NCBI GenBank assembly: GCA_016931855.1
Contig: JAFGDZ010000003.1
Coordinates: 45,171-109,170 of the forward strand
From: Bacteroidales bacterium
GTDB taxonomy: Bacteria; Bacteroidota; Bacteroidia; Bacteroidales; Tenuifilaceae
Reading direction: 5' to 3'
Length of the DNA stretch: 64,000 nt
The translations under genes were made by a program, and so were the position numbers. Shown here in pieces: positions 36,670-50,105 of this stretch. The stretch's first letter is position 1. Each line of letters opens with the position of its first letter. The notes beneath the pieces were generated by a model, which was not told the origin of the DNA, did no database searches, and saw nothing but the letters and a program-made list of their open reading frames with translations.

Positions 36670-37401
36670 CTAATCGTCGAAAACCTGTGTAAGTACGGGC
36701 AACGACCTTATACCGCCCATACCGCTAATGTGAACAGCATAGTAGCTAAGCAGCGCGTCGAGAAATGCGCTTCGCTGGCTGTGGCTTAGGCCAATATCGC
36801 CAACATCGTTATAAGAAAGGGACAGGAGGCTACCAAGCAATTCGCTATTCCCCGTTGAGAAGGAAAGCGGGTGCGATGGCTCACTAGCCACAAAGAGGCC
36901 GTTCTTAAAATCGAAGTAAGGGCGTAACGTGCTCCATGAGTTTCCTGGGGAGAAGCCCAAGTATCGCGTTAGCTGAACAAGAAATAGCAGGTGAAAATTG
37001 GATGCACCCTTTGATAACAGATCCAGCACTTGAATTGTATTGTTTAGGAAAACGTATAACGGCTGGTTCTCCTCCTCCTCGCGAACCACCCTGTAAACAA
37101 TTTCGCCAATGAATAGCGCTATTGCCCTTTTTACGGGGTCGTAGGGAATTGTATGAAACGTTATTTCGGGGGCTACCTCTTTAAGACGGTGCATCCCCTT
37201 TTTTTCGGAGTGATAAAAGACGGTGCTAAGAATGCTCAGCGGCTGAAAGAAGATGGACTTACCTCCCGACTTTGATTTACCAAAAGCGCTATTTACCATA
37301 AGGGTTAGCCGGCCATACTGTTGTGAGTAAACGTAGGCAACAAGGCTCTTCTCGCCATATCGTACGGAGTGCAGGGCTATTACACTTGATTTTGCCAGCA
37401 T
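36670..37401 (-). CDS. recO: DNA repair protein RecO
   Basis: Helps load RecA on gapped DNA in the RecFOR pathway. The 243-residue protein has the N-terminal OB fold (VIALHSVRYGEKSLVAYVYSQQYGRLTLMV) and the helical C-terminal domain typical of the family. A zinc-finger Cys cluster seen in many RecO proteins is absent here. It is the last gene of the leftward group usp-rdgB-porZ-recO and starts 31 bases after porZ. Confidence 0.92.
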   Translation of the reverse strand: MLAKSSVIALHSVRYGEKSLVAYVYSQQYGRLTLMVNSAFGKSKSGGKSIFFQPLSILSTVFYHSEKKGMHRLKEVAPEITFHTIPYDPVKRAIALFIGEIVYRVVREEEENQPLYVFLNNTIQVLDLLSKGASNFHLLFLVQLTRYLGFSPGNSWSTLRPYFDFKNGLFVASEPSHPLSFSTGNSELLGSLLSLSYNDVGDIGLSHSQRSAFLDALLSYYAVHISGMGGIRSLPVLTQVFDD

Positions 37402-37432
37402 AACAAACTTTTGATGATTTTGCAGCGCTACC

Positions 37433-39742
37433 CTAGTTCACAAACAGCACCTTTGCAGTGGCCGTTTGCTCTCCGCTACTATCGGAGCAAAGAATTAGGT
37501 ACACACCTGTGGCCACACGCCTACCGCGAAGGTTTTTCCCATCCCAAGTAGCCTGTCCGCCCACCGATTTTGTTTCGTAAACCAGGTTGCCCGCGATATC
37601 GATAATCTTAACGGTAGTGTTCTCCATAAGCCCAGCAATGGTTATAACCCCCATAAAATTGGGGCGAACGGGGTTTGGGAAAGCGTACACCTTGCCAAAA
37701 GCCTGATTGGGCAGCGTTGACTCTGCTCTATAGCTCACCATGCCCTCGTCGGTGGCAAAAAACACCTCTCCTGTTGTTGGGTGAACCTTAATATCGAGGA
37801 TATTATTTGAGGGCAGCGGGCTATTATCGATTGTAAAGTGGAGTACTTGCTTGGAGCCATCGGCCGATTGTAGGTACGCCCCCGACTTTGCCGTTCCAAG
37901 CCACTTCCTATTACCACCATCAATGGCAATAGAGTTAATTGTTTCACTCTCTAAAAGATATACGGCTAAACCAGGAACCACATCGGGCACCTTTATGCGC
38001 TGGGCGTAGAACTGGTTTGCCTCAAAAACCTTGTCGGGGTTATAGCTCACAAGCACACCCTCGCTGGTTCCCACCCAAAGGTAGCCATCCCCATCAAAAG
38101 CAATGCTGTAAATGTCGTTTGGCAAAACATTCCCCTCGCGGGTGTAAAGCTTAAGTCGGCGGTACTTATCGTCGGTAGCCAATGTAACGTCTCCACCAGG
38201 ATTCAGCGCAAAAAGTCCCTCGCCACGAGGAATGATAAGCCATAGCACACCCGTTGGGGAGCACACCAAATCCGATAGCCTATCGGCATTAATAACACTA
38301 GCGTAAGAAAAACTATACCACTCGCTTCCAGTTGTTTTAACAGATAATGGTTCACCAACCATTACATTGGAAGCCCACAAATTCCCCTTAGGGTCGAATG
38401 CCAATCCGCTAATTCTACAAAAAGCACCATCGGGGAAAATTGATTGCAGCGACGAGTTACTCTGATCGAACTGCTCCTTGAACTCGCCACCCTCAAACCG
38501 GAAAATGCCGTTACCCCAGCTTGCTACGTAAACCTCCTCGGGATTTCGCGGATTGGCTACTGCTCTAACCGCATCGAATGCGCTGTAGCGCTCAATGCTT
38601 CTCCACCGCTCATTGGTAAAGGAGTAGATTGTTAGCGGGTAGTACATGTTACCCCACGCAGCATTCCGAGATCCCGCCGCAACAGTTACCCTAGCAGAGC
38701 TAGCAGCGATGCTATAAACCCTATTTGAACTTGGCCCATTGGGCAGGATTTGCTTAAAGCTACCCAAAGTCCCTACGGCCATACCAAGTGAATTATCGGC
38801 AACGGCAAATTCTGTTGTAGAGATGGGAATAGCAACATTAGGCCTAAACGCCCAAAAGTTATAGGTACTTATGGTTTCGGATACCACTCCTGGCAACGAA
38901 CTGTAAGTATCAATCCCCTCCCGAGACGTTACAACAACTTTCCCATACCCCCATACTACTGATAGCACATTGCCATAGCGGGTTTGCATTACATCCCAGC
39001 TGGTTCCATTAAAGTAGTGCAGCAAATCAGGGTTCCCGTCCAGCGTATTTTCAAGAACCACAACACCATTACTATATGTGGCGATATCGCCTAGAGTTGC
39101 TCCTGTGCTTAGTAGCAGCGGCTCATTAACCCATCGGTTGTAGTGAATTAGCAATGGGTCGTTAGCATCGGCACTTAGCAAACCAGTACTGGTTGAAGCG
39201 TAAATACGCGAGTTCCAAAAGGCCAAGCCAAATACGGGAACCTGCGCCCCACCATTGCCCACAAAGTAGGTGTCGCGAACCTCCCTGCGCTTCAGGTTAT
39301 ACTCTACAACACCAAATCCTGTGGCAATAAGCAATCTGTCGTCAATAAACAGAAAATCGGTAATCTCTTTAGACCCCTGCAGCAGCTTATTCCTAATATC
39401 AACAATGGTTGTAACCCCATCGTTCTGCACAAGGTCAATGGTTCCATCGGCATAGCCAACTGCAAGAATCGATAGGCTCTCGCTATAGGCAATGGACGAT
39501 ATGCCCACACCCGAAAGGCCTTGAACCTTAGAAAAGGTTGACACCTCGTTTGTTGCTGTACGGTAAATTGAAATCCCATTGTGCGAAGCACAGTAAACAT
39601 TGCCGTTACCAAAAGCAACATCAATGCCTGTGTTGTATGAGAAGTGATCGCGCCACGATCCAACAGGGGGTTGCGCCATTGCTGCTATGGAGAAAAGAAG
39701 CAGTAGTAGCAGCCACACCCTTTTGCTGTGTAATATCATCAT
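37433..39742 (-). CDS. porZ: PorZ-like type IX secretion protein
   Basis: Part of the attachment complex of the type IX secretion system at the cell surface. From the Met at 39742 the protein is 769 residues: signal peptide (MMILHSKRVWLLLLLLFSIAAMAQ region), two beta-propellers made of short WxG-type repeats (about 25-330 and 335-690, for example GYLWVGTSEGVLVSYN), and a C-terminal sorting domain (about 695-769, containing GNLVYETKSVGGQATWDGKN). P. gingivalis PorZ has 776 residues and the same layout. The reading from 39793 adds 17 residues without signal character. Confidence 0.9.
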   Translation of the reverse strand: MMILHSKRVWLLLLLLFSIAAMAQPPVGSWRDHFSYNTGIDVAFGNGNVYCASHNGISIYRTATNEVSTFSKVQGLSGVGISSIAYSESLSILAVGYADGTIDLVQNDGVTTIVDIRNKLLQGSKEITDFLFIDDRLLIATGFGVVEYNLKRREVRDTYFVGNGGAQVPVFGLAFWNSRIYASTSTGLLSADANDPLLIHYNRWVNEPLLLSTGATLGDIATYSNGVVVLENTLDGNPDLLHYFNGTSWDVMQTRYGNVLSVVWGYGKVVVTSREGIDTYSSLPGVVSETISTYNFWAFRPNVAIPISTTEFAVADNSLGMAVGTLGSFKQILPNGPSSNRVYSIAASSARVTVAAGSRNAAWGNMYYPLTIYSFTNERWRSIERYSAFDAVRAVANPRNPEEVYVASWGNGIFRFEGGEFKEQFDQSNSSLQSIFPDGAFCRISGLAFDPKGNLWASNVMVGEPLSVKTTGSEWYSFSYASVINADRLSDLVCSPTGVLWLIIPRGEGLFALNPGGDVTLATDDKYRRLKLYTREGNVLPNDIYSIAFDGDGYLWVGTSEGVLVSYNPDKVFEANQFYAQRIKVPDVVPGLAVYLLESETINSIAIDGGNRKWLGTAKSGAYLQSADGSKQVLHFTIDNSPLPSNNILDIKVHPTTGEVFFATDEGMVSYRAESTLPNQAFGKVYAFPNPVRPNFMGVITIAGLMENTTVKIIDIAGNLVYETKSVGGQATWDGKNLRGRRVATGVYLILCSDSSGEQTATAKVLFVN

Positions 39743-39860
39743 CCTTGCGTGTTGGATTACTAAACTTGGGTGGAAACAAAAAGAACAATGCATACCAGAA
39801 TAAATAAATTTAGGTATGATAAGTATAACTCCAAAAATGGACGAATAGTATAGCCTGTTG

Positions 39861-40442
39861 CTATTTAGAGTTAAGGAACGACACCAACTTGCTAACAGCT
39901 CTTCCTCTGTGGCTTATGGCATTTTTTGCATCCAGCTCCATTTGGGCAAAGGAAACGTTGTAGCCATCGGGCATAAAGATGGGATCGTATCCAAACCCCG
40001 CCTCGCCATGCTTGCGGGTTAGGATTTGCCCCTCAACCAAACCCTCAAAAAGGCTTTCCTCACCATTAATAATAAGCGATATAACCGTTCTAAAGCGAGC
40101 CTTCCGATTATCAATACCCGTGAGCTCCGCCAGTAGCTTTACAATATTATCCTGAGGGTTCTTTTGCTCACCCGCATAGCGGGCAGAGTAAACGCCGGGT
40201 GCTCCATTAAGCGCATCAACCTCAAGACCAGTATCATCGGCAAAGCAATCTATACCAAACCTATTGTAAATGTGCCACGCCTTTTGCGATGCATTTAGCT
40301 CCAGGGTGTCGAAATCCTCGGGTATCTCCTCGGTAAAACCAATATCGGAAAGCGATAAAAGCTTAAACCTACTGTCAAGCAAATGCTGAACCTCCTGAAG
40401 CTTATGGAGATTATTGGTTGCAAAAACAAGTTTGTGCTGCAT
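39861..40442 (-). CDS. rdgB: XTP/dITP diphosphatase RdgB/HAM1
   Basis: Removes non-canonical purine NTPs such as dITP and XTP. The 193-residue protein has all family signatures: ATNNLHKLQEV at the start, FADDTGLEVDAL, GAPGVYSARYAG, GEAGFGYDPIF and SHRGRA. It lies six bases downstream of the universal stress gene and about 118 bases upstream of porZ, in the same direction, so the four genes may be transcribed together. Confidence 0.95.
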   Translation of the reverse strand: MQHKLVFATNNLHKLQEVQHLLDSRFKLLSLSDIGFTEEIPEDFDTLELNASQKAWHIYNRFGIDCFADDTGLEVDALNGAPGVYSARYAGEQKNPQDNIVKLLAELTGIDNRKARFRTVISLIINGEESLFEGLVEGQILTRKHGEAGFGYDPIFMPDGYNVSFAQMELDAKNAISHRGRAVSKLVSFLNSK

Positions 40443-40448
40443 TTTGCG

Positions 40449-41246
40449 TTACCTAGGGTTTATGCTCATTACGGGAATGTGACGGGCATTACCAATTATA
40501 TACTGTTCCTGTGGCTGCATGGTATATTCGCCATTGCCCGATGTTTTGGTGGTCATCAGCACAACAAGGTCGGCACGAATATTAACGGCAGCATCAAGAA
40601 TTTCCTCGGCGTACTGCTTTTTCCCTGGCACGGTGTACACCTCGTACTTAGCGCCACGATCGTCCAAGTACCTAATGGCAGAGGCCATGTTTAAATCGAC
40701 CTTGGCAAGCTGCTCAGGATCGGTAACAAAAGGTTTTATAAGGTGGAAACGAGAAACGTAGTAATCGCAGAAATACGAAATCCAGGTGTGCTTCTCTTTA
40801 TTCTCAAGGGTAAAGTCAACGGGAAAAACGATATCGTCGTACCGCTTATTAACAGGAGGCTCCTGAATGGTTATAAAGGGAACGGGAGAGCTGGTAATAA
40901 CCCTAAGGGTATTGGTGCCCGTAAGCTCATCTTTACCCCTAACGGTATGAGAGCCCATAATAACAAGGCTACAATTTAAAGTCCTTGCGGTATCGGCTAT
41001 ATCAGTAAAAATTGTTCCTATTTTTACAATAGTACTTGGGCGAATACCATGCTTTTGCTCGGCCGCAGCGGCAATAGCCTCAATGTGTTCCTTTGCGGCA
41101 CTTACCTTATCGGGAGAGTCAACAACGTGAAGAAGCGCTACCGGCTCGCCAACAACCCCAGAAACCCTAATAGCATGCTGCAAGGCGTAATCTGCAACAA
41201 CCGAAAAATCGGTAGGAACCAGTATCGTTTTATCTATATTCTTCAT
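40449..41246 (-). CDS. tandem universal stress protein (UspA type)
   Basis: A 265-residue cytoplasmic protein with two UspA domains in tandem: the first is complete (KTILVPTDFSVVADYALQHAI at the start, VIMGSHTVRG near 95-104), the second is more divergent (DIVFPVDFTLENKEKHTWIS). The glycine-rich ATP loop (GxxGxxxGS) is partly altered in both. It is divergent from the propeller-cyclase gene across a 178-base gap. It is likely the first gene of the rdgB-porZ-recO group. Confidence 0.88.
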   Translation of the reverse strand: MKNIDKTILVPTDFSVVADYALQHAIRVSGVVGEPVALLHVVDSPDKVSAAKEHIEAIAAAAEQKHGIRPSTIVKIGTIFTDIADTARTLNCSLVIMGSHTVRGKDELTGTNTLRVITSSPVPFITIQEPPVNKRYDDIVFPVDFTLENKEKHTWISYFCDYYVSRFHLIKPFVTDPEQLAKVDLNMASAIRYLDDRGAKYEVYTVPGKKQYAEEILDAAVNIRADLVVLMTTKTSGNGEYTMQPQEQYIIGNARHIPVMSINPR

Positions 41247-41424: not shown

Positions 41425-44400
41425 ATGAATTTTCTAAGATTTTTGTACAAATACTATATCCTTTTTTTACTATTTACAGTGTCTTTAACCCCGTCGGCGC
41501 TAGGCTTTCAGGAAGTTAATACAAGCGGGGGGCAGCCAGTATGCATTGCATCGTACACATATAATGGCTTAGCATCGGGGGCGTTTAATCAGCTTATTAT
41601 TGACTCGGAGTACAGGGCGGTTATAGCGGGGGCTAATGCGGTTCACATTTTTGATGGGCATACATGGAATAGCTTTGAAACGCCAGGGGCTCCTGTTTTA
41701 TCATCAACTAGTACGGGAATACTCATTGGGGGCAAGTCGTTCCTAGCCAAGCTAATCCCAATTGGTTCTGGCAGGTACTTTTACAATACCATTCTAAATG
41801 ACTCCACCCTTAACTTTGGCCAAATTACCCACCTAGGTGCCGACAGCAATGGGAACACCATCTTTTCTACGGGTAAAAAGCTTTGGCTATTCAACTCGCA
41901 GCTAGTTGCCATAGACTCATCGGAACAAGCAATAAAAATATTTAATACTGGGCACACATCCATAATACACAGCGTAGAGAGGGGTTTATTTGAGATACAG
42001 AACCATAAAATTGTACAAGTAGAGCAAGGCTCTACCTTTGCAAACATAGCCATTAGCAATATAGTACCCCTTGGTAACGATTTGGTAGTTATTACCAGTA
42101 ACAACCAGTGGATCCAGGTGGGCAATGGAGGAACAACGCCCCTTACTATTCCTAATCTAAATGAGCCTTTTGTAAACGCATGGAGCTATGGAGCCAACTT
42201 AATTATATCAACGCCAACTAAACTGGCAATTATTAACCACAACAGGGAGGTGGTAGGCACCATAAAAAGCAGTAATAAACTGCCTATTAACAGCATAAAA
42301 CAAGTTGCATCGAAAAAGGGAGCATTGCTTTATGCCATTACCAACGAGTCCCTACTGCACATGCTGTTCCCCCAGAACATGCTTGTTTACTCGTTTGAAG
42401 ATGGCATAAAGGGCGACATTAACGATCTTTACTTTGACGGAACAAGGTTAATGGTTGCCACATCAACAGGCATTTTTGCTGCAACCTACTCACAAAAGCA
42501 CAAGTTTTTCAACAGGTTTGAGCCACTACATGGCAGCAACATCAGCATAAAATACATAACCAGTACCAGCAGCGGACTACTAGCACTTGGCGCTAGCGGC
42601 ATTTACCCTATTAACGCAACAATGCAAAGGATAGAAAAGCCGCTTTATACCACAAAATCCAATGGCGTGGCAATAGTAAACAACACCCCATTGGTAACAG
42701 TATTTATCAATCAGCAAAATGTAACAATAGTAAAAGAGGTTAACGGCAAGCTAAAAGTCGAACCCTACAACACGCCCAGCAATAGCACAATAGTATCGTG
42801 GACACAACTTAACTCCTTTGTTATTATTGAAACCCAACAGGGCGATAGGTATAGGCTAACTACGAGTAGCAACCGTGATTTTGCGGCTAACTGGGAACGC
42901 CTTTCGGCCCAAGAGCTAGCTCCAGAACAGCTGGTTAACATTAGGCAATTTGGACAAAAATCGTTTATATACTCAAACAAATCGTGGTACACCTACTCTA
43001 ACAACAGCCACTTTACCAGAATACTTAACGAAAGCACCCAATACGCAACCCAGCCCATAGGCGTAACATCCACAAATAGCCTTATTGTATCCAACCAGGA
43101 CACCACCCTTGGTGGCATACAATCCATCCATTTAATGGATAAGCAAAAAATAATAGCAGTAGTACCTAATGGGTATAGGGTAACAAAAGCGCAGCTGCTG
43201 CCAGACTCAACTGTGGTTATTGTTACAGACAAGGGGCTAATTTCTGTTCCACCATCCTTTATGAAAACCCAGTTTGCCCCCCCATCAATATTCATCAATA
43301 AGATTTATAAGCTAAAAGATGGAGAAGAGGCTCAGGTAATTGTAGGGAAAACCATAAACAACAAAATTGTTGAAAGCGCAATACCAGTAGAACAAAAACA
43401 CGCTGTTGTATTTGTAGTGGGCAGCTCAGGCATTACCAGCTTTAACAACATTGCGTACAGCGCTAAACTTGAAGGCTATAGCAACAACTGGTCCAACTGG
43501 AGCACAAACAATCATTTCAAATACGCCAACCTAAGTGCAGGAGAGTACACCTTTAGAGTAAAAGCGCTAGATGTGCTGGGAGGAAAATCGGTAGAGCTTA
43601 CCGAGGTTGTAACAATACCCCCAACCATTTACCAGAACAGCTATGTTCAAATAGCCTTTTTTATACTCCTAGTGCTAGCAGCCCTTACTACAATTGCATG
43701 GAGAAAATACCGACACGCAAAAGAGAAGCATAAGCTGGAAAGTATTATTAGCCTACGCACAGAGGAACTGGTTAGAGAGAAGGAAAAAACGGACAACCTG
43801 CTTACCCGAGTTTTGCCAAAGGAAACGGCAACCGAACTAAAAGAAACGGGAAAGGTAAACACCCAACGGTTTAAAACCGTAACCGTGCTATTCTCCGACA
43901 TACAAGGCTTTACCAGAATAACCGACGAAACAAATCCCGAAGAGCTAATAGACCAGCTGGATAAGTTTTTCCTAAACTTTGATGCTGTTGTTGACAAGTA
44001 TAAGATTGAGAAAATTAAAACCATTGGCGATGCGTACATGTGTGCCGGCGGAATACCCAAGAAGAACAGAACAAATCCAGTAGAAGTTGTTCTTGCCGCC
44101 ATTGAAATGATGCACTTTATGAGACGGCTAAAGGAGAAGAGCACCAACAAAAGCAACATATGGGATCTGAGGATTGGCATTGATACTGGCCCCGTTATTG
44201 CAGGCGTAGTGGGGCGCAACAAGCTTACATACGATATTTGGGGAAGCACCGTTAACACGGCAAGCCGAATGGAATCCAGCGGAGAACCAGGAAAAATAAA
44301 CATATCGGAAAACACCTATATGTTTGTAAAGGACTACTTTATTTGCACTTACCGCGGTAAGATGCCAGTAAAAAACAAGGGCGACATACAGATGTACTTT

Positions 44401-45069
44401 ATTGAGGGCATACTACCCAGCTTATCGCACAACCTTGAGGGAGTAATACCCAACCACGACTTTTTAGTACAGCTACAGCTACTAAGGCTAGGCGATTTAG
44501 AGGAATTTGTACTTGAAAAACTAGACAAAGGACTACCCAAAAACCTTCATTACCACAACCTTAAACACACAATTGACGTTTACACACAGGTAGAACTTAT
44601 TGGACGATCGGAGAGCTTAACCAACGAGGAGCTGCTGATTATAAGAACCGCAGCCCTTTTCCACGATGCTGGACATTTAATTGACTACGACACACACGAG
44701 GAAATGAGCGCAAAGCTTGCAAAGGAAATTCTACCCGAATATCTTTACTCCTACGCACAAATTGATGCCATTTGCGAAATAATTATGGCAACAAAGCTCC
44801 CTCCTAGACCCAAAAATCTACTTGAAAAAATTATTTGCGATGCGGATCTTGACTATCTAGGACGCTCCGATTTTATCCCCGTTTCCAACAACCTGTACAA
44901 GGAGCTGCACGAACACGGCCGTTTAGGCACGCTACAGGACTGGAACGAGCTACAGATTAAGTTTATAGAGCAGCATCAGTACTTTACACAAACAGCACAA
45001 CAATTAAGAAATGTTAATAAAAATACCCAGTTAAGTAACATTAAAGCATGGATGGAAAAAAATAAGTGA
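41425..45069 (+). CDS. propeller sensor - adenylate cyclase - HD phosphodiesterase fusion
   Basis: A 1214-residue inner-membrane protein. In order: signal segment; beta-propeller-like repeats outside (about 30-640); Y_Y_Y domain (672-722); membrane helix (about 739-757); coiled coil; class III cyclase (about 815-995); HD domain (1025-1190). Cyclase residues are intact: metal Asp825 (LFSDIQGF) and Asp869, base-selecting Lys in EKIKTIGDAY (863/865) and Asp937 (YDIWG), Asn944 and Arg948. The Lys/Asp pair indicates ATP, giving cAMP. The HD domain has LHYHNLKHTIDV (His1048) and LFHDAGH (His1080, Asp1081), a class I PDE-like pattern. Synthesis and possible breakdown on one chain is unusual. Divergent from one universal stress gene and upstream of another. 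Confidence 0.9.
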   Translation: MNFLRFLYKYYILFLLFTVSLTPSALGFQEVNTSGGQPVCIASYTYNGLASGAFNQLIIDSEYRAVIAGANAVHIFDGHTWNSFETPGAPVLSSTSTGILIGGKSFLAKLIPIGSGRYFYNTILNDSTLNFGQITHLGADSNGNTIFSTGKKLWLFNSQLVAIDSSEQAIKIFNTGHTSIIHSVERGLFEIQNHKIVQVEQGSTFANIAISNIVPLGNDLVVITSNNQWIQVGNGGTTPLTIPNLNEPFVNAWSYGANLIISTPTKLAIINHNREVVGTIKSSNKLPINSIKQVASKKGALLYAITNESLLHMLFPQNMLVYSFEDGIKGDINDLYFDGTRLMVATSTGIFAATYSQKHKFFNRFEPLHGSNISIKYITSTSSGLLALGASGIYPINATMQRIEKPLYTTKSNGVAIVNNTPLVTVFINQQNVTIVKEVNGKLKVEPYNTPSNSTIVSWTQLNSFVIIETQQGDRYRLTTSSNRDFAANWERLSAQELAPEQLVNIRQFGQKSFIYSNKSWYTYSNNSHFTRILNESTQYATQPIGVTSTNSLIVSNQDTTLGGIQSIHLMDKQKIIAVVPNGYRVTKAQLLPDSTVVIVTDKGLISVPPSFMKTQFAPPSIFINKIYKLKDGEEAQVIVGKTINNKIVESAIPVEQKHAVVFVVGSSGITSFNNIAYSAKLEGYSNNWSNWSTNNHFKYANLSAGEYTFRVKALDVLGGKSVELTEVVTIPPTIYQNSYVQIAFFILLVLAALTTIAWRKYRHAKEKHKLESIISLRTEELVREKEKTDNLLTRVLPKETATELKETGKVNTQRFKTVTVLFSDIQGFTRITDETNPEELIDQLDKFFLNFDAVVDKYKIEKIKTIGDAYMCAGGIPKKNRTNPVEVVLAAIEMMHFMRRLKEKSTNKSNIWDLRIGIDTGPVIAGVVGRNKLTYDIWGSTVNTASRMESSGEPGKINISENTYMFVKDYFICTYRGKMPVKNKGDIQMYFIEGILPSLSHNLEGVIPNHDFLVQLQLLRLGDLEEFVLEKLDKGLPKNLHYHNLKHTIDVYTQVELIGRSESLTNEELLIIRTAALFHDAGHLIDYDTHEEMSAKLAKEILPEYLYSYAQIDAICEIIMATKLPPRPKNLLEKIICDADLDYLGRSDFIPVSNNLYKELHEHGRLGTLQDWNELQIKFIEQHQYFTQTAQQLRNVNKNTQLSNIKAWMEKNK

Positions 45070-45153: not shown

Positions 45154-45990
45154 ATGGAAACGACTAAAAAAACGATTCTTGTTCCATGGGACTTTTCTGA
45201 AGGAGCAGAAAATGCCATTCTTCATGCAAAGCAATTAGCGAATGCAGCCGATAATGATATTATGCTTTTGCATATTATCCCTCGCTCATTCTTTTACAAG
45301 TACTTTGGGAACAAGAACTCAGCTAAAGAAATTGATACCGCCCGCCATAAAATGGAAGAGGCGGCTATAGATATTGAGCGGAAATATGGTTTCAGGCCTC
45401 AAACCCTAGTTCTTGAGGGAAGGCTTAACCATGTTATAAAAGATATGGTTGTGGATACTAACATAAACCTTGTTGTTGCCAACAAGATTTATAGTTACGA
45501 TAAAAAACCCATTGAATCGTCCAACTTCTTAAGGCACCTTTACTCGCCAAAGTTCTCTGTACCGTTTATCATCACCAAGTCGGCTCCGCTCCACTCCCAC
45601 TACATTGAGATTGTTGTACCACTTGACCACGACAAAAAGTACAAGGAGATTTTGCACTGGATTATTTACCTTTCAAAGTACTACAAGTGCAACATCAACC
45701 TTATTAAACCCTTTATTAACGATGAGGGGAAGAAAAAGGACATGGCAAACAACATCTACTTCACCAAGAAGATGCTTGATGGCAGCAAAATTATTTACGG
45801 TATAAAAACTGCCAAGAAAAAGAATACCTTTAAGGACGAGGTGTTTAAATTTGCCGAAAACATTGATGCAGATCTAATTCTTATTATGGCCGACAAGTAC
45901 GATAATTACATCTCGGAGAATAAGGACGGAACCAGCGTTCCAATAATGTGTATCAATCCTAGAGCACGCAAATACCAAAGCTTCTACTAG
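45154..45990 (+). CDS. tandem universal stress protein (UspA type), second copy
   Basis: A 278-residue protein beginning METTKKTILVPWDFSEGAEN, the normal UspA start, with a second weaker UspA domain after about residue 150. It is a paralogue of the usp gene at 40449, with the same two-domain form and same end CINPRA (here IMCINPRARKYQSFY). It lies 85 bases downstream of the propeller-cyclase gene. Having usp genes on both sides of the cyclase suggests a stress-related role, but this is inference. Confidence 0.88.
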   Translation: METTKKTILVPWDFSEGAENAILHAKQLANAADNDIMLLHIIPRSFFYKYFGNKNSAKEIDTARHKMEEAAIDIERKYGFRPQTLVLEGRLNHVIKDMVVDTNINLVVANKIYSYDKKPIESSNFLRHLYSPKFSVPFIITKSAPLHSHYIEIVVPLDHDKKYKEILHWIIYLSKYYKCNINLIKPFINDEGKKKDMANNIYFTKKMLDGSKIIYGIKTAKKKNTFKDEVFKFAENIDADLILIMADKYDNYISENKDGTSVPIMCINPRARKYQSFY

Positions 45991-46045
45991 GTTTTAGTTC
46001 TAATGCCGAACATGGTTCGGCTATTTCTTTTTAAATGCGGGTACT

Positions 46046-48352
46046 ATGTTTCGAAATATAAGCCTACAAGCTAAAATACAAACCCTTGTAATTAGCATCT
46101 CTGTTGTTATTTACATCCTTGCCATTGGGTATATTAGCGTTAAAGCGCGCAAAATCTCCTTTAATAGCGCCATAACCCTAACCAACGAAACGGCAAATAA
46201 ACATGCACAGCAAGTACGCACCCTGCTAGAAAAAGATTTAGTTACGGTTAAAACCCTATCGGAGTCCGTTCTAATATACAAAGACCTACCCTCCAATAAG
46301 TGGAAAGACATTATTTCCAAAATGTACCATGAAGTCTTTAAGCAAAACCCTCAGTTCTTTGCCATCTGGGACTCATGGGAATTACGGTTTATTGACTCTA
46401 CATACAAAAAGGACTACGGCCGGCTAGTTATTGAGTTCTATAGGGACAATGGAGACATAAAGAAATCGGAAACTCTAAAAAGCATGACTGGCGACCCCGC
46501 AGATTATGCTCGCATAAAAGGAAACGCAAAGGAAAGCCTAGAAAACCCCTACTTCTATAGCTACACAGGCAAAGACGAGGATAACAGACTAATGACCAGT
46601 CTTATATCGCCCATAATCCAGAATAACCAGTTTATTGGAGCAGTAGGTGTGGATATTATTCTTGACAGCTATCACCCAATCATTAACCAAATAAAACCAT
46701 TTGAGGATAGCTACGCATTTCTAGTTTCGCACGACCTTAAGTATGTTGCCCACCCCGACAAGTTACTAATTGGCGAAAGCATTCTTGACGATTACGAGAA
46801 CATATTTTACTCAAATAAGGTTTTAGACAAAATTACAAATGGGGAAGAGGCATCGTTAATAACCAAAGACATCAATGGTGTTGAATCGTACTTTACGTTT
46901 AGCCCCATTATTGTAGGTGACACAGAATGGGCGTGGTCTCTTGTTGTTGTAGTTCCCACTAAGGTAATTCTTGAAGAAGCCAACACAACCCTTTTCCTAT
47001 CCCTCTTAATGGGATTAATTGGCCTTTTGGTTCTTTCTGCGGCCATATACTACGCATCAAAATACCTAATTAACCCAATTAACAAGATAACCCTAACCCT
47101 TAACAAGCTAGCATTAGGCCATATTGGAACCGACATGCTAATTGACGTTAAGGAAACCGATGAGATTGGACAAATGGGTAATGCGCTAAACGTTTCCATT
47201 AAAGGGTTACTTAGCAAGGCTGATTTTGCTCGTAATATAGGTAAGGGTAACCTAGAATCGGACTTTGACCTGCTAAGCGACGACGATAGCCTTGGACAAG
47301 CACTTATTACCATGCGCGAAAGTTTAAGCGAGGCCAAAGAAGCAGAAGAGCACAGAAAAATAGAGGACAAAAAACGCCAATGGGCTAATGAAGGGATTGC
47401 TAAATTCAGCGATCTTCTTCGCCAGAACAACAATAACATAGAGGCATTAGGATCAGAGATTATTAAGAGCATTGTTTACTACCTAAACGCAAACCAAGGC
47501 GGGCTATTCCTTTATAACGATGACGATAGCTCCGACATCCACTTTGAGCTTATAGCCGCTTACGCCTATAATAGACAGAAGTTTATTACCAAAAAGATAA
47601 TTCCTGGCGAAGGGCTAGTTGGAACATGCGCTATAGAGAAACAAACCATTTACCTAAAGGAAATACCCGATAGCTACGTTGAAATTACATCGGGACTTGG
47701 CGCGGCAAAACCCACATCGCTACTAATAGCACCATTGCTAAATGAGGATGTAGTGCTAGGCGTTCTGGAGCTGGCCTCGTTCAGCGAGTTTGAACCATAC
47801 CAAATAGAGTTTATTGAGAAGCTAACGCAAAGCATAGCCTCAACCCTTATGGCGGTAAAAATAAACATAAGAACCGCCATGCTGCTTGAAAAAACGCAGC
47901 AACAGGCTGAGGAAATGGCGGCACAGGAAGAGGAAATGCGCCAGAACATGGAGGAGCTGCAAGCAACCCAAGAAGAATCGGCACGAAAGGGTGGCGAAAT
48001 GCAAGGATTTATTGACGCCCTAAACCAATCATGCTATGTTATTGAGTATGACCCCATGGGATACATTACCTCAATTAACAACGCATACCTTGATTTGCTG
48101 TCTCTTCACCGCGAGAATGTTTTGGGTACTCACCACTCTGAGGGAATGGAAATGGATCCATCAATGCAAAAGGAGTACGACAATTTCTGGCAAGACCTAC
48201 GCAATGGTATTACCCGTAAGCAAACATCTAAGGTTACCATGAACGGCAAGTCGTTCACCTTTGAAGAGACCTACACCCCAATTAGGGACGATATGGGTTC
48301 TGTGTACAAGGTGCTAAAGATTGCCAATAACATTACAAACCTTATCCATTAA
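46046..48352 (+). CDS. dCache-HAMP-GAF-PAS sensor without output domain (768 aa)
   Basis: A 768-residue inner-membrane sensor. TM1 at about 13-32, dCache periplasmic domain 35-310 (GVDIILDSYHPI pattern), TM2 about 315-336, HAMP 337-392, GAF about 465-615, coiled coil 616-650 (EEMAAQEEEMRQNMEELQ), and a final PAS domain 655-765. I see no kinase, cyclase, GGDEF, PP2C or methyl-accepting output domain. The coiled coil is of the signalling-helix type. A closely related paralogue lies at 51696. It may act with a separate partner. Confidence 0.85.
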   Translation: MFRNISLQAKIQTLVISISVVIYILAIGYISVKARKISFNSAITLTNETANKHAQQVRTLLEKDLVTVKTLSESVLIYKDLPSNKWKDIISKMYHEVFKQNPQFFAIWDSWELRFIDSTYKKDYGRLVIEFYRDNGDIKKSETLKSMTGDPADYARIKGNAKESLENPYFYSYTGKDEDNRLMTSLISPIIQNNQFIGAVGVDIILDSYHPIINQIKPFEDSYAFLVSHDLKYVAHPDKLLIGESILDDYENIFYSNKVLDKITNGEEASLITKDINGVESYFTFSPIIVGDTEWAWSLVVVVPTKVILEEANTTLFLSLLMGLIGLLVLSAAIYYASKYLINPINKITLTLNKLALGHIGTDMLIDVKETDEIGQMGNALNVSIKGLLSKADFARNIGKGNLESDFDLLSDDDSLGQALITMRESLSEAKEAEEHRKIEDKKRQWANEGIAKFSDLLRQNNNNIEALGSEIIKSIVYYLNANQGGLFLYNDDDSSDIHFELIAAYAYNRQKFITKKIIPGEGLVGTCAIEKQTIYLKEIPDSYVEITSGLGAAKPTSLLIAPLLNEDVVLGVLELASFSEFEPYQIEFIEKLTQSIASTLMAVKINIRTAMLLEKTQQQAEEMAAQEEEMRQNMEELQATQEESARKGGEMQGFIDALNQSCYVIEYDPMGYITSINNAYLDLLSLHRENVLGTHHSEGMEMDPSMQKEYDNFWQDLRNGITRKQTSKVTMNGKSFTFEETYTPIRDDMGSVYKVLKIANNITNLIH

Positions 48353-48755: not shown

Positions 48756-50105
48756 ATGCAAAGAATGAAATGGGAGGCTCTACTTTGCCCCAACAGATGG
48801 GGTAGCACACCACAAAAGGTAGAGTCGTTAGACGAAACAAGAACACACTTTCAGCGCGACTACGACAGGCTTATATTCTCATCGCCATTTAGGCGGTTGC
48901 AGAATAAAACGCAGGTATTCCCACTTCCAGGCAGCGTGTTTGTTCACAATAGGCTAACCCATAGCCTAGAAGTAGCAAGCGTTGGCCGTTCGCTAGGCAA
49001 TAATATAGTAAAGGTTATCCGCGAGAAGGAAGGTAATATCCATAATCACCTTATTGAGGAGATTCCAACCATTGTATCTACCGCATGTCTTGCACACGAT
49101 ATGGGGAATCCCCCATTTGGACATAGCGGCGAGGATGCCATTAGAACCTTTTTTAAGGAGCATGCCCACAAGCTGCAAGCACAGGTTAGCGAAACTGAGT
49201 GGACCGACCTTATCCGATTTGAAGGAAACGCCAACGCGCTAAGGCTTTTAACCCAAAAACTAGAAGGGCGAAGAGAGGGTGGCTTTAGATTAAGCAAGGC
49301 TATTCTTGCCACAATTCTTAAATATCCCTACCCATCGAGCGTAACAGATAGGAAAAAGTTTGGCTATTTTCAATCGGAGCAAGAGACCTTTATTGATATT
49401 GCTACCAACACAGGCTTAGTTGCCACCGATGCTACAAGGAACATATACGCCCGCCATCCGCTTGTTTACCTTGTAGAGGCTGCCGATGATATATGCTACC
49501 AAATAATGGACATTGAGGATGCCCACAAGCTAAGCATCCTGTCGCACGAGTTTGTGATGGAGCTATTCCTTGGATTCTTTGATAAGGAACTGGAAGCATC
49601 TAGAATTAAGCAAATAGAGGAAACGCTTACGGAGGTTACCGATAAGAACGAGCAAATAGCCTTTCTGCGCGCCCTAGTTATTGGAAAACTGGTGGGTGAG
49701 TGTACCGAAGCCTTCCGAAATAGCTACGAGGCAATTATGCACGGAGAGAAAGTTGCTGCGCTAGCCGACCAGCTTAGCCCAGTTGCAAGCAAAGCAATGG
49801 GTAAAATTGCAAAAACCGCAGTTGCTCAGGTTTACAGCTACCGCTCGGTTGTTGAGATTGAGATTGCAGGCTTTAAGATTATGGGAACACTACTTGATGC
49901 GCTAACCGATGCTATAAACAACCCTGAGAAAACTCTTTCAAGAAAGATTTTTAGCATAGTTCCTGCTCAGTACAACCTAAAAGAGGGAAGCTACTACCAG
50001 CGGTATATGTCGATGCTTGATTTTGTATCGGGGATGACCGATGTGTACGCCCTAGAATTTTACCGAACCATACAGGGCATTAGTATCCCTGGAATCCCCC
50101 ATTAA
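48756..50105 (+). CDS. dgt: dGTPase-family deoxynucleotide triphosphohydrolase
   Basis: Splits dNTPs into nucleoside and triphosphate. The 449-residue protein has the HD-domain signature set: FSSPFRRLQNKTQVF, VHNRLTHSLEVASVGRSLG, CLAHDMGNPPFGHSGEDAI and the distal HD-type Asp in VEAADDICYQIMDIEDAHK. Length is a little below E. coli Dgt (505). Its 3' end overlaps the convergent exonuclease/GIY-YIG gene by 26 bases. No Shine-Dalgarno precedes the ATG. Confidence 0.95.
   Translation: MQRMKWEALLCPNRWGSTPQKVESLDETRTHFQRDYDRLIFSSPFRRLQNKTQVFPLPGSVFVHNRLTHSLEVASVGRSLGNNIVKVIREKEGNIHNHLIEEIPTIVSTACLAHDMGNPPFGHSGEDAIRTFFKEHAHKLQAQVSETEWTDLIRFEGNANALRLLTQKLEGRREGGFRLSKAILATILKYPYPSSVTDRKKFGYFQSEQETFIDIATNTGLVATDATRNIYARHPLVYLVEAADDICYQIMDIEDAHKLSILSHEFVMELFLGFFDKELEASRIKQIEETLTEVTDKNEQIAFLRALVIGKLVGECTEAFRNSYEAIMHGEKVAALADQLSPVASKAMGKIAKTAVAQVYSYRSVVEIEIAGFKIMGTLLDALTDAINNPEKTLSRKIFSIVPAQYNLKEGSYYQRYMSMLDFVSGMTDVYALEFYRTIQGISIPGIPH

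Follow-up and report, generated by a model that had tools for sequence, protein, structure and literature searches.

A sensor-linked class III nucleotide cyclase with a putative cyclic AMP phosphodiesterase domain on the same chain in a Bacteroidales bacterium

The gene described here lies in a stretch of 64,000 nucleotides (the window; assembly GCA_016931855.1, contig JAFGDZ010000003.1, positions 45,171 to 109,170 of the forward strand) from a Bacteroidales bacterium of the Tenuifilaceae, and it encodes a protein of 1214 residues in which a sensor region, a membrane helix, a class III nucleotide cyclase and a C-terminal HD domain follow one another. The best explanation for this architecture, and one that we consider reasonably probable, is a sensor-gated adenylate cyclase (AC) that carries its own phosphodiesterase (PDE) on one chain. 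To judge from its residues, the cyclase domain likely makes cyclic AMP (cAMP) from ATP, and the HD domain is predicted to hydrolyse the cAMP made by the same chain. Given a cyclase and a predicted cAMP-degrading domain on one chain, the protein would likely start and stop its own signal and thus be a self-limiting cAMP switch.

Domain organization of the protein

The frame at 41425 to 45069 of the window has no inner stop. An earlier note, made from the letters of this DNA, had read in it a sensor, a membrane helix, a cyclase and an HD domain in that order, and translation, Pfam and a structure model all confirmed it. The features of the gene, in window positions, are as follows.

41425..45069, + strand: whole gene (sensor, membrane helix, class III cyclase, HD), 1214 amino acids; translation, Pfam and structure model
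41542..43344, + strand: beta-repeat sensor region, residues ~40-640, predicted to be periplasmic; model and Foldseek
43441..43596, + strand: Y_Y_Y domain, residues 673-724; Pfam PF07495, 41 bits, cut-off 26.6, E 2e-10
43645..43701, + strand: predicted transmembrane helix, residues 741-759, the sole membrane helix found; hydropathy scan
43858..44409, + strand: class III nucleotide cyclase domain, residues 812-995; Pfam PF00211 and key residues
44512..45066, + strand: HD domain, residues ~1030-1214, modelled with a class I PDE-like fold
44554..44568, + strand: HNLKH; H1044 aligns with the leading His in the HNxxH of PDE4D, and H1048 is a proposed metal ligand
44662..44667, + strand: H1080 and D1081, the HD pair
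44845..44847, + strand: D1141, proposed fourth metal ligand, pairing with the Asp of PDE4D CADL in a forced alignment
44953..44964, + strand: Q1177-x-x-F1180, proposed counterpart of the glutamine switch and clamp Phe, from a forced alignment

The structure prediction covered residues 30-1214 with a mean predicted local distance difference test score (pLDDT) of 77.5 and a predicted template modelling score (pTM) of 0.54; with such a pTM for the whole chain, the packing of the domains is not reliable. It showed beta repeats to about residue 630, a long helix across the membrane segment, and then the cyclase and the HD domain. The long helix comprised model positions 710-761 (residues ~739-790) and contained the predicted transmembrane segment 741-759. 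Pfam placed the HD domain (PF01966) at residues 1046-1141 with an E-value of 2e-8, above its cut-off. By eye, the N-terminus resembled a signal peptide.

Cyclase and HD active sites in fused proteins

The Guanylate_cyc profile matched the protein with 193.2 bits against a cut-off of 21.9 (E 4e-57), and the cyclase part of the model returned bacterial and mammalian class III cyclases in Foldseek. In these enzymes two Asp hold the metal, a Lys/Asp pair picks adenine, and an Asn and an Arg catalyse. All six residues (D825, K865 in KIKTIG, D869, D937, N944 and R948) were present, as had been read correctly beforehand, and we take the K865/D937 pair to be the adenylate-type choice that marks the use of ATP. 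Among 82 distinct fused sequences (over 35 bits, identical ones counted once and the window's included; loci L091 and L098, in our own numbering, are near copies), K865 was kept in 81 and D937 in 79.

In the HD domain of the window protein, H1044, H1048, H1080, D1081 and D1141 were likewise intact. Both residue sets were kept in all the 39 close propeller relatives aligned (39 of the 119 other relatives listed; alignment A3), so that neither the cyclase nor the HD domain can be taken for a chance resemblance. Another alignment (A2) was built without most of the degenerate HD domains (L077 was kept) and without many other sequences. Both sites were intact in 60 of the 82 fused sequences; 14 had a changed HD metal site beside an intact cyclase and 8 a changed cyclase beside an intact HD. 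That no sequence had lost both sites (0/82) was rejected as a signal, since about 1.4 would be expected by independence and the difference is not significant.

The 14 fused HD domains lacking the full metal site mean that hydrolysis is not the sole use of this domain. Ten of them lose H1048, H1080, D1081 and D1141 jointly, which supports these four as the metal site, while Gln 1177 is kept in 12, H1044 in 13 and D1139 in all 14; an HD domain retained in this state perhaps acts as a binding module. The same sequences, all of them with intact cyclase residues, could be read as a sign that the HD domain is in general a product sensor with no working PDE, its binding of cAMP giving feedback to the cyclase. 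We consider this improbable, given that the full metal site is present in 68 of the 82 fused sequences and that the HD residues are intact in the window protein and in every one of its 39 aligned relatives.

Distribution of the fusion and gene neighbourhoods

The fusion is not a one-off. Counting best matches at E <= 1e-120, which is stronger than the 3e-117 of the top match listed that lacks an HD, the core occurs in 73 or more of the 198 genomes in the window's order; the figure is a lower bound because three candidates per genome were scored. Fused genes are also carried by Carboxylicivirga and Marinifilum, which are cultivable. When homologues of residues 780-1214 were sought, all 120 matches listed (4031 passed the E-value) carried Guanylate_cyc and HD in precomputed Pfam annotations. 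At 80 named loci, cyclase and HD were fused in 50, lay in separate same-strand genes within 175 bp in 5 (among them Taibaiella koreensis, Aestuariibaculum suncheonense and a Rufibacter), and had the HD gene further off in 2, with a cyclase only in the other 23; the 50 of 80 is not a rate because the loci were ranked by their match to the cyclase-HD query. Uniqueness of the architecture was therefore rejected on the listed homologues, the order-wide counts and the named loci.

Over the phylum, the HD family was matched in 131 of 395 genomes. The 80 places sampled, which were the best-scoring listed matches after the window's own, comprised 40 HD domains standing alone, 31 fusions to PycTM, 4 to YitT and 2 to a cyclase, and 3 other architectures. 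Hence the cyclase-HD fusion, frequent in the order of the window, proved rare across the wider phylum sample. PycTM and YitT fusions were called with home-made profiles, and Pfam confirmed 3/3 PycTM and 1/1 YitT examples.

A cyclase gene lay within 5 kb in 20 of the 78 HD places not fused to a cyclase (13 of 51 sampled genera), and within 600 bp in 12. The chance expectation was 0.65, and 0 of 200,000 simulations reached 20. The expectation was computed from cyclase counts and genome sizes, with candidate numbers serving as counts for the rich genomes and zeros entered for genomes without a match; several genera recur among the HD places, which the simulation nevertheless takes to be independent, and the sample consists of the matches with the highest scores. 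Two further arrangements were observed. L149, L151, L156 and L159 encode fusions of the HD domain with a YitT membrane protein, and in 4/4 a class III cyclase gene is no more than 600 bp away; in L161 and L164 TPR-rich proteins (859 and 880 amino acids) carry the same HD at the C-terminus, with a cyclase gene 20 bp away in L164.

Relation of the HD domain to class I phosphodiesterases

The resemblance to class I PDEs that the earlier note saw in the HD domain stands in three respects, namely the fold, the paired catalytic residues and the cyclase fusions and neighbours. In the structural comparison the HD model matched the fold of the class I PDE catalytic domain. In forced alignments with PDE4D, residues H1044, H1048, H1080, D1081 and D1141 were paired in 60/60. 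The same alignments place F1180 opposite what we take to be the clamp Phe of class I PDEs. HD matches of >= 100 bits entered the HD alignment, the count at residue 1177, the tree and the PDE4D alignments, the weak HDs of L119 and L120 being dropped.

Membership of the PDEase_I family did not stand. The profile scored 14.7 bits on the whole protein and 16.7 on the domain alone against a cut-off of 24.8, and membership by Pfam was therefore rejected and is not claimed here; by the curated score, the HD domain belongs to a smaller family of its own. Besides this score and the 14 fused HD domains described above, several results weigh against a PDE. In the profile search of the PDB, 2pq7 (the best match, E 2e-8), a Cas10 HD, 2hek, an HD-GYP protein, YedJ and BH2835 all ranked above the best class I PDE, and Foldseek put 2pq7 (E 5e-4) and YpgQ (E 6e-4) level with or above PDE5. 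Default hhalign against a PDE aligned 52 columns, from HN..H to HD, with 59% probability. The C-terminal pairing with PDE4D, including that of Q1177 with the PDE4D Gln, arises from forced alignment, and masking Q1177, or Q1177 and F1180, shifted the C-terminal register, so that the pairing of these residues depends on the residues themselves. The HD domain has ~185 residues, against 328 in the PDE4D catalytic chain, and 58 of the 78 unfused HD places had no cyclase within 5 kb. Moreover, the global mode of hhalign gave no useful alignment of HD and PDE, and when a profile was built from just the final 82 residues, the PDB returned no PDE and a single, unrelated match (E 0.91); the C-terminal half is therefore unsupported by sequence search on its own.

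A rival reading makes the HD domain a YpgQ-type phosphohydrolase whose substrates would be NTPs, pyrophosphate or an alarmone, with its link to cyclases reflecting general nucleotide metabolism. The rank of 2pq7 and YpgQ among the top Foldseek matches and of 2pq7 in the profile search speaks for it, and bacterial YpgQ and YedJ are described as (d)NTP pyrophosphohydrolases (PMC6692503). The YpgQ-like plant proteins include AtCN-PDE1, reported to hydrolyse cGMP, and BDPDE1, reported to hydrolyse cAMP (PMC6692503, PMC8431786). YpgQ did not appear among the 50 VIA matches listed for the model in the structural comparison. On the other hand, the higher structural coverage was that of PDE10A. The single HD sequence matched only phosphodiesterases among solved chains, albeit at E-values of 0.56-1.1. 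Both groups share an HD domain, yet the family of the window protein has its own fusions, to cyclases and to PycTM, and its own gene neighbourhoods, adjoining cyclase genes far above expectation. In attention to this, we give the YpgQ-like alternative a low probability.

Residue 1177 and the PycTM branch

Residue 1177, the proposed base-binding position, was Gln in 54 of 56 cyclase-fused HD domains, 4/4 YitT fusions and 23/49 others, and in 0/31 PycTM fusions, where it was Asn (16), Ser (7), Thr (6) or Asp (2). A tree of 140 sequences united all 31 PycTM fusions with 26 further HDs in one group with a support of 100/100 (the bootstrap was not fully settled), and the two fused sequences lacking Gln 1177 fell outside it. 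Among unfused places, a cyclase lay within 5 kb in 12/22 of the Gln type and in 8/56 of the remainder. A clean split of a Gln type going with cyclases and another type going with PycTM was rejected because of these 8 places and of the Gln-type unfused HD of L150, which has a PycTM-like gene 1.8 kb away. PycTM fusions occupy 31/80 places in L148-L227 (e.g., L168, L176 and L180) and were also seen at L056:1480-2694 and L067:1438-2673.

PycTM is an effector of pyrimidine-nucleotide Pycsar signalling, and the HD domains fused to it are possibly erasers of Pycsar-type messengers. HD-effector fusions may be described in a survey of 2015 on the comparative genomics of nucleotide-centric conflict systems. 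That the HD of the window protein hydrolyses another cyclic nucleotide (cGMP, cCMP or cUMP), the chain converting between two messengers, could be argued from the sister HDs fused to PycTM; we consider this quite unlikely, as the Gln of cyclase-fused HDs is absent from the PycTM fusions and co-evolution on one chain would better fit a shared substrate.

More broadly, and only tentatively, cyclic-nucleotide signalling of Bacteroidota may use a minimal, so far unrecognised relative of the class I PDEs as a common off switch. The cyclase-linked branch, with a Gln that would grip the purine, would erase cAMP on the chain or in the operon where it is made, and the sister branch (Asn, Ser or Thr, about half of it fused to PycTM) would erase another, perhaps pyrimidine, messenger and so reset Pycsar-like membrane effectors. 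On this view the window protein, as a receptor for sugars or for the state of the envelope, would write and erase cAMP rather than phosphorylate a regulator.

Sensor region

The best Foldseek match of the sensor part of the model was the periplasmic domain of BT4663 (4a2m; E 2e-23, TM-score 0.60 by target length); 3v9f, the BT3049 sensor, also matched (E 4e-19). The predicted shape of the region matches a sugar receptor, and its predicted location is outside the inner membrane. Of the propeller and Y_Y_Y domain claimed in the earlier note, the Y_Y_Y domain and the BT4663 fold were recovered; Reg_prop was absent from the window protein by Pfam, though many relatives among the matches listed carry it.

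Such a sensor is just one of several inputs to the cyclase-HD core. Pfam on 51 complete fused proteins (frames open at a contig edge were excluded from the architecture and hydropathy set) found the cyclase in 51, HD in 36, Y_Y_Y in 25, Reg_prop in 14, a receiver domain in 5 and TPR in 2, and shorter forms also occur. Compared with the window protein, the 39 propeller relatives in the alignment had a median identity of 18% over the sensor region and of 70% over the cyclase-HD core, so that the inputs diverge and the core stays. The window protein is likely the common core of its order bearing one of its larger sensors.

Genomic context and candidate cAMP receivers

The genes next to the cyclase-HD gene are listed below; the strand facing it carries usp-rdgB-porZ-recO, usp being a universal stress protein gene.

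45154..45990, + strand: second universal stress protein gene, which begins 84 bp beyond the stop codon and may share an operon with the cyclase-HD gene; Pfam Usp
40449..41246, - strand: universal stress protein gene, divergent, conserved neighbour; Pfam and synteny
37433..39793, - strand: porZ, a type IX secretion gene conserved beside cyclase-HD genes; NCBIfam PorZ at 644.6 bits against a cut-off of 260, and synteny
46005-46021: terminator-like site downstream of the second usp gene, from a scan whose count was not clearly above shuffles

The recO-porZ-rdgB-usp set stands beside cyclase-HD genes in the window (36670-41246) and in loci L068-L120. PorZ was found in 18 of 55 loci (L068-L122), and the neighbourhood is therefore old; a link of cyclase-HD proteins to type IX secretion or envelope control is possible. 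In L074, L079, L083 and L109 porZ-rdgB sits between two cyclase-HD genes, the second of which keeps its cyclase residues and has a degenerate metal site in the HD domain. Two more genes were noted in the window, both on the + strand: at 46046-48352 a Cache-HAMP-GAF-PAS protein with no recognised output domain and with dCache below its cut-off, which adjoins the gene in L068 too, and nearby, at 48756-50105, a dGTP triphosphohydrolase by NCBIfam. The scan for regulatory sites was uninformative, with 11 promoter-like sites against 11.0 in shuffles and 7 terminator-like sites against 4.8 (standard deviation 2.0).

The window's genome contained 8 matches to the cyclic nucleoside monophosphate (cNMP)-binding domain and one further cyclase match elsewhere; the window's HD was the sole member of its family matched there, and PycTM gave 0 matches. 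By reading of the sequences, L231 (G000:C58:43725-43967), in which a cNMP-binding domain is fused to an aspartase-like enzyme, is a candidate cyclic-nucleotide-controlled enzyme, and L235 (G000:C28:16010-16246), in which such a domain is fused to a histidine kinase, is a candidate cAMP receptor. The phosphate-binding cassette of L235, GEYSLVDSSVRSTSV, presumably is canonical.

Proposed mechanism

Class III cyclases function as dimers. For a sensor-gated cyclase with its own PDE, we propose that a ligand would bind outside and that the signal would pass along the long helix to the cyclase dimer. The cAMP would be degraded beside the cyclase by the HD domain, which would keep the signal short or local unless the HD domain is itself restrained, and the cNMP-binding-domain proteins of the same genome would be its candidate receivers.

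Comparison with known systems

The window protein resembles the BT4663-type hybrid two-component sensors of Bacteroides in its sensor fold and Y_Y_Y domain and differs from them in having the cyclase-HD pair as its output; Pfam and NCBIfam, at E <= 0.1, found neither a histidine kinase nor a receiver or DNA-binding domain in it. A two-component-type sensor is here wired to a cyclase, with a likely built-in eraser. A census of 2005 found many histidine kinases and no adenylate cyclases in the four Bacteroidetes genomes then sequenced (PMC1183210).

In Pycsar (PycC and PycTM) the resemblance lies in the sister branch of the HD family that is fused to PycTM, and the difference in the adenylate-type residues of the window cyclase. 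In RelA/SpoT and GGDEF-EAL proteins, too, a synthetase and a hydrolase of one messenger share a chain and one site is sometimes lost; these have other messengers and other synthetase families.

No bacterial cyclase-HD fusion with measured activities appeared in the titles and abstract openings of the literature covered, most subscription papers being outside it, which is weak evidence of absence. Should the HD activity prove real, these bacteria would possess a cAMP phosphodiesterase of class I-like type, in a family recognisable by sequence, and one residue (Gln against Asn, Ser or Thr) would test which cyclic nucleotide each branch erases, the Pycsar-linked branch included.

The protein would then also be a bacterial counterpart of the plant CAPE proteins, which are the nearest known AC-PDE fusions. 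CAPE (MpCAPE of Marchantia) likewise joins a class III AC and a cNMP phosphodiesterase on one chain, and both activities were demonstrated in vitro with recombinant domains (PMC5159850, PMC8115329). In CAPE the order is PDE then AC and the PDE part is a class I PDE; the passages covered mention no propeller sensor. Set beside CAPE, the window protein has the AC domain and the HD fold, a PDEase_I score below the cut-off and the reverse order, an AC followed by a putative PDE domain of a smaller bacterial HD family.

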